Assembly (NCBI GenBank): GCA_017448795.1
Contig: JAFSKV010000044.1
Location: forward strand, 1 to 41,317
Reading direction: 5' to 3'
DNA from: Synergistaceae bacterium
GTDB taxonomy: Bacteria > Synergistota > Synergistia > Synergistales > Aminobacteriaceae
DNA: 41,317 bases
Part shown: positions 4,250 to 40,410 of the stretch, one piece after another
How the letters are laid out: every line of letters begins with the position of its first letter
Position numbering within the stretch: the first letter of the stretch is position 1
The notes under the pieces: generated by a model
What the model saw: only the letters and a program-made list of their open reading frames with translations
The model's database searches: none
What the model was told of the DNA's origin: nothing
Position numbers and translations under genes: made by a program

Positions 4250-4326
4250 AGTGATTAGTGATGAGTGATTGGTGAGTAGTAATCAGTGAGCAAACTGACC
4301 GCTACACACTACAAACTAGACACTAG
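4250..4326. repeat. Degenerate heptanucleotide (AGTGATT-type) array
   Basis: The array starts 6 bases after the stop of the binding-protein gene. About six direct heptamers (AGTGATT, AGTGATG, AGTGATT, GGTGAGT, AGTAATC, AGTGAGC) are followed by copies in the opposite orientation (ACACTAC, AAACTAG, ACACTAG), so it can also fold on itself. The same heptamer family recurs at 13191-13245 and 30818-30867. Confidence 0.7.
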
Positions 4327-13190: not shown

Positions 13191-13245
13191 AGCTAGTGGC
13201 TAGTGATTAGTGATTAGTGGCTAGTGATTAGTGGCTAGTGAACAG
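13191..13245. repeat. Heptanucleotide array after the SLC13 gene
   Basis: Right after the TAA, perfect heptamers alternate: AGTGGCT, AGTGATT, AGTGATT, AGTGGCT, AGTGATT, AGTGGCT, AGTGAAC. The first 19 bases from the stop codon are identical to those after the paralogous transporter at 30813. No hairpin with a T tract is present. Confidence 0.85.
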
Positions 13246-30817: not shown

Positions 30818-30867
30818 GCTAGTGGCTAGTGAGTAGTGAGTAGTGAGTAGTGGCTAGGGATTAGAGC
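30818..30867. repeat. Heptanucleotide array after the second SLC13 gene
   Basis: AGTGGCT, three AGTGAGT units, AGTGGCT and a decayed AGGGATT follow the TAA almost directly. The first bases match those of the array at 13191. The rest of the gap to ttdA holds no clear terminator. Confidence 0.85.
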
Positions 30868-35121: not shown

Positions 35122-35150
35122 ATTATATCATCATCGCGCTGTGCTATAAT
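35122..35150. promoter_or_regulatory. Divergent promoter region with facing -10 boxes
   Basis: TATAAT reads rightward at 35145-35150 and leftward at 35122-35127, for the methyltransferase and the flavoprotein genes. Each -10 falls where the -35 of the other would be, so the two promoters probably compete. No good -35 is visible for either. Confidence 0.5.
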
Positions 35151-35205
35151 CCGTGTAAATCCCAGCAATAAGGAGGTTGACAGCTGTGAAATTTAGTGCG
35201 TATAA

Positions 35206-35880
35206 TTGTCAGCAGTCAGCAGTCAGCAGTCCCATGTTGTCGTCAATTTAGGTTGCGGCTCTTCTCCCATCAAAGACGCAATTAACATCGACAATTCCCC
35301 CTCAGTATTCTTAGGCCACCACAAAATAATATGCGCGTTACTGAGTGCTTTGGGTCTCATCAGCCCTGAGCAGAAGAAGGTCATTTCTGCCACGCGCGAG
35401 TACGGAATAATACGCGGCAGCGCCTGTTCGATCCCGCTGGAGGACGGGAGCGTTGATGTCCTCTACACAAGCCACATGGCCGAGCATCTCTATGAGGATG
35501 AGTTCAGGAAATTTCTCGCCGAAGCCCGGAGAGTCCTCAAGCCCGGCGGAGTCCTCAGAATATCAGTGCCGAATCTCGAAGCCGCCGTGAAAAGCTATAT
35601 TCAGGACGGTGATGCCGACGATTTCTGTGACAGGCTTCTTCTTTGTCATGGCCGGAAACTCAGCGGCATAAAGAGGCTGAACGCGCTTCTCTTCGGGGAC
35701 AGGGGGCTTCACAAGAGACTGTATGATCCCCGCTCAATGAAGAAATATATCGAGGAACATACGGGAATGAGCGTTACAATCCTGAAGGCCGGAGAGACCA
35801 CGATAGATTTTCCGACAAGCATCGATTACCGCGAGCGCGAGGAAGGAAGCCTCTACGCAGAGTGCCGCAAGAACGCCTGA
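35206..35880 (+). CDS. SAM-dependent methyltransferase (type 11) with a heptanucleotide tract at its start
   Basis: The 224-codon frame holds a class I methyltransferase: VNLGCGSSPI (SAM loop, about 13-22), INIDNS, IPLEDGSVDVLYTSHMAEH and RRVLKPGGVLRISVPN. Proteins like this act in cell-surface glycan pathways, which fits the next gene. The start is odd. A strong AAGGAGG (35170-35176) and a GTG nine bases later (35186) are in another frame, ending at 35251. The first codon available in the methyltransferase frame is a TTG (35206) without a ribosome-binding site, directly at an AGCAGTC tract. Adding one heptamer would put the GTG in frame with no stop. Confidence 0.75.
   Translation: MSAVSSQQSHVVVNLGCGSSPIKDAINIDNSPSVFLGHHKIICALLSALGLISPEQKKVISATREYGIIRGSACSIPLEDGSVDVLYTSHMAEHLYEDEFRKFLAEARRVLKPGGVLRISVPNLEAAVKSYIQDGDADDFCDRLLLCHGRKLSGIKRLNALLFGDRGLHKRLYDPRSMKKYIEEHTGMSVTILKAGETTIDFPTSIDYREREEGSLYAECRKNA
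35208..35231 (+). repeat. AGCAGTC heptanucleotide tract in the methyltransferase 5' end
   Basis: GTC plus three perfect AGCAGTC copies (35211-35231). Since 7 is not a multiple of 3, copy-number change switches the frame joined to the GTG at 35186. Confidence 0.85.
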
Positions 35881-35940: not shown

Positions 35941-37887
35941 ATGTTCAGATCATACACGGCTGGTAGCGTCATCAAGTCTCTGGCAAAATATGACACTGTC
36001 AGCTTCGACGTTTTCGACACCCTCATAAAACGCTGCGTTGCTTCCCCCCGTGATGTTTTCGCACGGACAGCAAGGGACTTCATGGACATTCACGGGTGCT
36101 TTGTCGACCCTGAGAGATTCCTTCACGACAGGAGGACGGCGGAGCATGACGCTTACACGGCGATGAAAGCCAGCTCACCGGGCTGTGAGGAAATCACCCT
36201 TGACCAGATATACACCAGGCTGCCCAGTGAATATGACGGCATAAGGGATGAGCTTAAGGCTCTTGAGATCCGGCGCGAGGTGAAATGCGCGAGGCCTGAC
36301 CCGGCCATGAAGGAAGTGTACAGATGGTGCAGGGACAAGGGCAGGCGCGTCTTCATCATATCGGACATGTACCTTCCCGGTGAAGTAATCCGCGAGATTC
36401 TCACCTCATGCGGCTACGAGGGCTGGGAAAAGCTGTACGTGTCATCAAGCGCGCTTCTCAGGAAACAGTCAGGCGGCCTCTTCCGTCATTTCATCCGCGA
36501 CTCAGGCATCAATCCCAAGCGCCATGTCCACATCGGCGACTCATGGAGGAGCGATTACTTCCGTGCGTTAATGTCCGGGCTTCACGCGCTCAAAATCCCC
36601 CGCAGCCCCAGAAGAAGCACCTACACAAAAACACTCGGCCTCAATCCCGGGCACAAAGCACAGTACAGGAAGTATGAGTCAGTGATAAGCGGCCATGTTC
36701 CGCCGGATTGTAGCCCATATTACCGTTACGGCTTCGAGGTTGTGGGCATTATGCTTTACGGGCTCTGCTGCTGGCTTCATGAGCGTTTTACTGAGATGGG
36801 GCATGAGCGGGTTTTCTTCCTTTCTCGGGACGGCTACATCATGCAGGAGGCCTACAACATGCTTTTTGGGAACAAGGCCGTGAGGAACAGCTACCTTTAC
36901 GCGTCGAGGAACGCGTTTATTTTCCCGCGCATATGGATGAAGCCGGCTCTTCCTGACATATTCGAGTCTGTTACGCCGTTCGAGCTTATAGGCCGGGATT
37001 ATGCCTGCGATGTCCTTCACATTTCTGACAGGGAGCGCGCTTGCAGTGTGTGGAAGGAATGCGGTTTTGGCGACGGCGAGAGGATGAGCAGGAAGCAGTT
37101 TCTCAGCGACAAGAGGGCGGGGAAATTCTTTGAGGCCTTCAGGGATGAAGTGTGCCGCGAATCCAGGAGAAGGTTTGAGCTTGTTACGGAATATCTGAGG
37201 CAGGAAGGCCTGCGCGGGTCAGTTGGGATTGTCGACATAGGCTGGGCCTGCACGATGCAGAAATATCTTGAGGAGTTTACAGAGGCGGCAGGAATTGATG
37301 CTGACATTCACGGCTGGTATCTCGGGCTGAAGCCGGAAACTTTCGTCAGCAAAAACTTTGAGTCCTACATCCCTGCGGAGCTCAACCCCTCGCTGTTCTG
37401 CCCCTCCCTCATGGAGTACCCTTTCACGAAAAACAGCGGCTCAACAGAGACATATTCACGCGGAGAAAACGGTGATGTTGTCCCCGTCCTCTATGACTAC
37501 GAGTTCCGGGGCAGCGATGACGAGGAGCATACGCGGCAGATTCAGAAGGGTATGCTGGACTTCATATCTGTCATGCGTGACGGCTATGGCGCGGAGAGTG
37601 TAGGCTATGATGTTGCGTATTCACGGCTCAGGAAGGTAACAAAATCTCCCTCCCTCAGTGATGCCTGTCTGCTTGGCGGTCTTCGTTACGTCAACCACGG
37701 GCATATGACTAATATTGCCGCGCCCAGGAGCCTAATTCATTACGTTCTTCACCCCGCTGATTTCAAGGCGGATTTCAGCGCGAGCGGATGGAAGGCAGGC
37801 TTCCTGCGGAGGCTGATGAGGCTTCCTCTTCCGTATGATAGGATGCTGTCTTTTGTCCGCAGAAAATTGGAACGCAAATATACCTAG
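35941..37887 (+). CDS. HAD-superfamily protein of surface-glycan type (COG5610-like)
   Basis: The 648-aa protein begins with a HAD hydrolase domain: DVFDTL (23-28) with nucleophile and acid aspartates, IISDMYLP (motif II), the motif III lysine region KLYVSSSALLRKQSGG and GDSWRSD (motif IV). The remaining 400 residues contain MGHERVFFLSRDGYIMQEAY and VDIGWACTMQKYL, as in large HAD proteins in O-antigen or capsule gene clusters. A phosphatase or glycosyl-phosphate role on a surface polysaccharide is likely; the substrate is unknown. AAGGAGG precedes the ATG and GTACAAT lies about 24 bases before. Confidence 0.8.
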   Translation: MFRSYTAGSVIKSLAKYDTVSFDVFDTLIKRCVASPRDVFARTARDFMDIHGCFVDPERFLHDRRTAEHDAYTAMKASSPGCEEITLDQIYTRLPSEYDGIRDELKALEIRREVKCARPDPAMKEVYRWCRDKGRRVFIISDMYLPGEVIREILTSCGYEGWEKLYVSSSALLRKQSGGLFRHFIRDSGINPKRHVHIGDSWRSDYFRALMSGLHALKIPRSPRRSTYTKTLGLNPGHKAQYRKYESVISGHVPPDCSPYYRYGFEVVGIMLYGLCCWLHERFTEMGHERVFFLSRDGYIMQEAYNMLFGNKAVRNSYLYASRNAFIFPRIWMKPALPDIFESVTPFELIGRDYACDVLHISDRERACSVWKECGFGDGERMSRKQFLSDKRAGKFFEAFRDEVCRESRRRFELVTEYLRQEGLRGSVGIVDIGWACTMQKYLEEFTEAAGIDADIHGWYLGLKPETFVSKNFESYIPAELNPSLFCPSLMEYPFTKNSGSTETYSRGENGDVVPVLYDYEFRGSDDEEHTRQIQKGMLDFISVMRDGYGAESVGYDVAYSRLRKVTKSPSLSDACLLGGLRYVNHGHMTNIAAPRSLIHYVLHPADFKADFSASGWKAGFLRRLMRLPLPYDRMLSFVRRKLERKYT

Positions 37888-39876: not shown

Positions 39877-39907
39877 TGCTGTATCGTGAAAATTTTTTGC
39901 TGACTGT

Positions 39908-40410
39908 GAGCTTGTCGCCGGGTCTGAATGCTAGCTGTAGCGGGGAAATCTTGCAGGCAGTGAGAGAGTCGCCGGGACTTAATGCAGACTGTAGCGGGGA
40001 AATCTTGCAGGCTGTGAGCTTGCCGCCGGGTATGAATACTGACTGTAGCCGTGAAATCTCGCGGACTATGAGCTTGTCGCCGGGTCTGAATGCTGACTGT
40101 AACCGGGCAATCTCGCGGACTATGAGCTTGTCGCCGGGTCTGAATGCTGACTGTAACCGGGAAATCTTGCGGGCTATGAGCTTGTCGCCGGGTATGAATG
40201 CTGGCTGTAGCCGTGAAATCTCGCGGACTATGAGCTTGTCGCCGGGACTGAGTGCTGACTGTAACCGTGAAATCTTGCAGGCCGTGAGCTTGTCGCCGGG
40301 TCTGAATGCTGGCTGTAGCGGGGAAATCTTGCGGGCTGTGAGCTTGTAGCCGGGACTTAGTGCTGGCTGTACCGTGAAATCTTGCAGGCCGTGAGCTTCT
40401 CACCGAGTCC
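39908..40410. repeat. 54-bp tandem-repeat array, about nine copies
   Basis: Units of 54 bases repeat head-to-tail, for example GTCGCCGGG recurs at 39914 and 39968 and continues every 54 bases. Central copies are nearly identical; the outer ones, especially the last (40342-40410), are worn. Because 54 is divisible by 3, frames without a stop in one unit stay open through the whole array in several frames on both strands, so the long reading frames seen there are not evidence of protein. The array lies between two divergently transcribed genes and fills most of 39819-40465. Confidence 0.92.

Follow-up and report, generated by a model that had tools for sequence, protein, structure and literature searches.

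A dispersed repeat-bearing leader cassette predicted to phase-vary glycan-type genes in an uncultured genus of Synergistaceae

The segment at 35140-35231 of the window, that is, of the whole 41,317-nucleotide stretch of Synergistaceae DNA analyzed here, belongs to a dispersed family of cassettes. We propose that these cassettes form a multi-locus phase-variable leader-ORF system, in which repeat slippage would act through translational coupling or fusion, and we put the probability of this reading at about 85%. The sequences themselves show how the cassette is built, that its array units are non-triplet, that one frame connects to the gene, and that the cassette recurs at several loci, whereas the switching would be a predicted consequence of these features.

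Results

Promoters, start site, and array of the window locus

The features of the window locus are listed in Table 1. The original prediction had paired the Shine-Dalgarno (SD) motif AAGGAGG at 35170-35176 with the GTG at 35186 as a start whose frame closes early. Both are present, and the frame, which translates as VKFSAYNCQQSAVSSPMLSSI*, stops at the codon 35249-35251. The three perfect AGCAGTC copies that had been noted occupy 35211-35231 within the array delimited by TRF (period 7, 3.4 copies, 100% matches, score 48), and AGCAGTCAGCAGTC had no second occurrence across the 2.54 Mb genome. The earlier reading had missed that the GTG sits within the spacer of P2, a perfect 12/12 sigma70 match with an 18-base spacer, and that the whole unit is a copy of a dispersed family. 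We also considered that AAGGAGG and GTG might merely mimic a start site within a perfect sigma70 promoter; this was rejected because the family's frame statistics point to selection on both signals.

Table 1. Features of the window locus.
Feature	Position	Strand	Remark
P1, extended -10, TGnTATAAT (TATAAT 35145-35150)	35142..35150	+	likely promoter of the leader ORF, activity putative
Leader Shine-Dalgarno, AAGGAGG	35170..35176	+	kept across the cassette family
P2, nested sigma70 promoter (TTGACA 35177-35182, TATAAT 35201-35206)	35177..35206	+	overlaps the leader start
Leader ORF, GTG start (35186-35188), 21 codons, and TAG stop	35186..35251	+	present register, predicted OFF
Heptamer array, (GTCAGCA) x 3.4	35208..35231	+	proposed slippage tract; TRF
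SAM-dependent methyltransferase (Methyltransf_11), no good start of its own	35239..35880	+	Pfam and frame test
HAD-domain protein with its own Shine-Dalgarno	35941..37887	+	weak HAD-family matches

In the frame test, the window start with 1.4 or 4.4 copies opened an ORF of 226 or 233 aa including the methyltransferase, and with 2.4, 3.4, 5.4, or 6.4 copies it yielded only 21-37 aa. The expectation that one more copy, or two fewer, places the GTG in the methyltransferase frame was thus borne out, and the unit length changes the reading frame, as in an SSR contingency locus. The window copy belongs to the fused class, in which the leader is joined to the gene, and not to the coupled class described below. 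As read here, the methyltransferase is predicted to be in the OFF register. No alternative start in the methyltransferase frame is plausible because the TTG at 35206, already regarded as a weak alternative, overlaps the P2 -10 hexamer and lacks a Shine-Dalgarno.

The encoded protein matched the Methyltransf_11 profile (PF08241; E=1.3e-12; 48.6 bits against a curated cut-off of 21.2), which places it among the class I SAM-dependent methyltransferases. A protein scan of GTDB contigs returned no relatives, no close orthologue was detected among 60 relatives, and the genus gave weak domain matches only. The methyltransferase and the HAD-domain gene are possibly co-transcribed. An Rfam search gave no match, and no terminator was found in the window region.

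Other repeats were observed in the window. Degenerate intergenic heptamer arrays of the GCTAGTG/ATTAGTG type occur at 4250-4325, 13192-13241, and 30819-30857; they contain stop codons, have no cassette, and form a second class of heptamer repeats in the genome. Additionally, a 54-bp minisatellite (39897-40409, 9.5 copies) lies upstream of a minus-strand flavoprotein gene and can itself be read as an open frame continuous with that gene.

Distribution of the cassette family

The search with 1.6 kb of window DNA matched the neighboring oxidoreductase gene and many unrelated places, in the same genome and in congeneric species, that resembled only about 35140-35230. Approximately 80 cassette copies were collected. 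The exact core pattern occurred at 26 places in 15 of the 43 genus genomes, and the pattern read backwards had no match in these 43 genomes. A sequence profile gave matches in 34/43 genomes, with as many as 19 in a single genome at E<=0.01 when weak matches are counted; we take the copy number per genome to reach about ten. Over the GTDB contigs, 18 of the 25 core matches came from Synergistaceae-type MAGs, largely of ruminant gut. The remaining seven, which lacked arrays, were set aside as chance or ordinary promoters. Among 151 genomes of the order, which represent 54 genera, no genus other than that of the window gave a score better than E=8.6e-5. Judged by these searches, the family is confined to the genus of the window, an uncultured group of Synergistaceae found mostly in the ruminant gut.

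Cassette anatomy

The elements follow the order extended -10, SD, start codon, nested sigma70 promoter, tandem array, tail, and gene, and the tail is often similar to TAGCTTAGTCTGTCC. The P1-type extended -10 (TGnTATAAT-like) was found in 54 of 66 members. For P2, the -35 (TTGACA) and the -10 (TATAAT) had at most one mismatch in 59 and 62 members, respectively, and the spacer was 16-18 in all 66. The start codon was located 6-16 nt past the SD in 61/63 members, against 34.9 expected with shuffled spacers. The period-5 group, recognized by eye, often has an ATG 14-15 nt past the SD, a long distance and a weak point, and some cassette copies have no good start codon.

Two array-less loci were observed. 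In one (L190, about 100-190), a cassette-like leader is fused to a methyltransferase-like gene and perhaps represents a locked or ancestral form of the cassette. In the other, in the genome of the window (L194, G000 contig 74, near 10966), P1 is kept and P2 is degraded ahead of a possible glycosyltransferase-like gene.

Units, coupling, and fusion

The array unit differs by locus, with 23 types, and the periods were 7 (59 loci), 5 (11), and 8 (3), never a multiple of three. A coding-strand stop was present in one of the 23 unit types, itself a doubtful assignment, against 4.9 expected (P=0.03); on the opposite strand, six types had a stop.

In 50 of the 66 loci, one array-exit frame ends at the start codon of the gene, a count that accepted any start in the frame of the gene and was therefore biased towards coupling. 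Among the coupled loci, the leader stop formed ATGA 28 times and lay at +4 or +5 12 times. For the remaining two frames, the commonest closing positions are -1 and +4 relative to the array end. The leader was fused to the gene at 13/66 loci, window included. Of the three left over, two (L015 and L151) were nearly coupled by eye. In L015, as seen in its tail, the gene coupled to the cassette is methyltransferase-like, carries an early in-frame stop, and is apparently a pseudogene.

As the any-start count leans towards coupling, the statistics rest on a strict test, in which gene starts were picked by SD strength and start codon, blind to the leader frames. Strict overlap was obtained at 39/53 loci, whereas tail shuffling gave an expectation of 15.2 and never more than 28 in 200,000 draws; being related, the copies do not provide independent tests. 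The automatic choice of starts overlooked a few coupled loci. At the coupled loci, which do not include the window copy, the leader stop overlaps or adjoins the gene start, as in translationally coupled pairs. The same ATGA overlap occurs in the genome of the window, at the start of contig 81. At five loci preceding the same kind of methyltransferase (L045, L091, L094, L141, and L159), the stop stays at +5 with arrays differing in unit, period, or number. The ON register was found at 14 of 52 loci, so the cassette phases are roughly random, not far from the expected third.

With about 80 related cassettes, non-triplet units, and one frame of three joining the gene at nearly all analyzable loci, these data support the phase-variable start proposed in the original prediction.

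Genes behind the cassettes

The Pfam survey of 66 downstream proteins recovered ten radical SAM proteins, nine to ten members of methyltransferase families, seven glycosyltransferases of family 2, six of group 1, and five DUF1919 proteins. Further families were cytidylyltransferase, sugar transferase, TupA-type ATP-grasp, GDP-mannose dehydratase, and MBOAT. In the genome of the window, the targets comprise a glycosyltransferase group 1, a bacterial sugar transferase, a polysaccharide pyruvyl transferase, an FkbM-type methyltransferase, a short-chain dehydrogenase, and the window methyltransferase. Most of the targets are enzymes of glycan type, and from these families, we infer a surface-glycan role for the cassette targets; the other targets and the neighboring gene point to such a role for the window methyltransferase.

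Signs of copy-number variation

The genomes compared were one per species. Two contig pairs, G062 C95/C124 and G061 C195/C212, share an overlap of exactly 141 nt, and in each pair the break falls within the array; both loci belong to species other than that of the window. The default largest k of MEGAHIT is 141. Assuming this assembler, each pair may be neighbors in a branching assembly graph, as occurs with coexisting copy-number variants, and the two overlaps indirectly suggest copy-number variants within one sample. Matches lying less than 150 nt from the first base of a contig numbered 8 of about 150 listed, against approximately 1.5 estimated from contig numbers.

Three contig ends of the window's genome (L163, L164, and L204; G000 contigs 2, 85, and 81) lie within arrays of the same GACAC type, so assembly breaks at these arrays as well. 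In another genome (L182 and L183; G030 contigs 2 and 10), two contig ends share at least 2374 identical bases, and each of them runs out in an AACCACG array; this identity reflects either a duplication or two strains.

Discussion

In the proposed switch, P1 would make the mRNA and ribosomes would initiate at the leader codon, GTG 35186 in the window, before traversing an array of stop-free, non-triplet units. Slippage in vivo would shift the copy number by one and thereby change the frame at the array exit. One frame of three would then reach the gene, at most loci by a leader stop overlapping its start codon and in the fused class, which includes the window, by joining the leader to the protein. 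In the other two frames, translation would stop at or soon after the array, leaving the gene off or poorly made; how strongly ON and OFF would differ is something we infer. The window array is short, with 3.4 copies, and slippage is less frequent in short arrays. The OFF state may be leaky since the leader start would be missing from P2 mRNA and each coupled gene carries an SD of its own. P2 may serve basal expression, slippage by array melting, or polymerase pausing. A more tentative extension, which we consider doubtful, is that the phase switch is reusable and is spreading or being copied between loci with P2 as part of the device, either melting the array and so raising slippage or pausing RNA polymerase long enough for the leader ribosome to catch up.

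The near-perfect, conserved P2 directly before the array could instead indicate a transcriptional switch, in which the array opens the P2 transcript and, through its length, adjusts promoter output or the stability of the mRNA, with the frame irrelevant. Repeat number acts at the transcript level in Haemophilus hmw, which provides a precedent. However, the array lies downstream of the -35 and -10, whose spacing is constant, and such a switch fails to predict exclusively non-triplet, stop-free units, conserved leader starts, or overlaps of leader stop and gene start, so we consider it very improbable. Leader-peptide attenuation or polarity, in which ribosomes block termination between leader and gene rather than being coupled at the start codon, shares its design of a leader with repeats with S. 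gallolyticus pil1 (PMC3894217), and a leader ORF with non-triplet repeats is indeed found here. The tails contain C about twice as frequently as G, which would fit a possible Rho-dependent polarity in OFF frames. Yet no stem-loop terminator of the pil1 type was found in 46 tails, which had no hairpin excess (mean fold z -0.27), or in the window region, and attenuation requires neither exact start-codon overlap nor fused loci; we judge it unlikely.

A neutral repeat would make the heptamers a chance expansion, with the methyltransferase constitutively translated from TTG 35206 or decaying. The degenerate intergenic heptamer arrays elsewhere in the genome and the lack of a close methyltransferase orthologue among the 60 relatives would agree with this view. 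Nevertheless, evidence against it comes from the family-wide frame architecture, from the position of the TTG on the -10 box without an SD, and from a methyltransferase frame that remains open over 224 codons (the listed ORF from TTG 35206), and we consider it extremely improbable. The frame-dependent switch acting through coupling or fusion is therefore our preferred reading.

In S. gallolyticus, the leader peptide of pil1/pil3 carries GCAGA repeats, and repeat gain or loss moves the leader end and hence the expression of the surface structure, a longer leader opening a transcription terminator (PMC3894217). The cassettes share with pil1/pil3 a short leader ORF before the gene and non-triplet repeats that set the leader end. 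They differ in that no terminator was seen, the leader either ends in an overlap with the gene start or continues into the gene, and one dispersed cassette with many unit types precedes unrelated glycan-type genes. The heptanucleotide repeats of neuO and the Haemophilus lic genes exemplify in-frame SSR contingency genes, where the repeat belongs to the gene itself. In lic and in neuO, the latter an E. coli K1 gene (PMC13001214), repeats near the 5' end reframe a glycan-modifying gene, which resembles what is proposed for the fused class, window included; unlike them, promoter, start, and array here form a shared module, and most loci use a separate leader ORF. The coupled loci resemble gene pairs with an ATGA overlap, in which the upstream stop overlaps the downstream start, but here the upstream partner is a short leader ORF, and a slippable array determines its frame. 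Multi-locus SSR phasomes are described in Campylobacter and Neisseria (PMC6321876, PMC5084427). As in these, several surface genes per genome would each be expected to switch independently; however, their tracts arose gene by gene, whereas here one conserved cassette is reused.

Repeat phase variation, repeat-bearing leader peptides, and translational coupling are each known separately, and repeat-driven phase variation has been described mostly from pathogens, with repeats mostly within the varying gene. Full-text literature searches, with partial coverage, returned no account of the three being combined in a dispersed cassette, or of repeat-driven switching in Synergistaceae. An uncultured genus of gut Synergistaceae appears to randomize several glycan-type genes independently by means of one standard cassette, mostly via translational coupling. 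The sequence rule predicts ON or OFF for each locus; therefore, the surface heterogeneity of this uncultured group could be readable from metagenomes.
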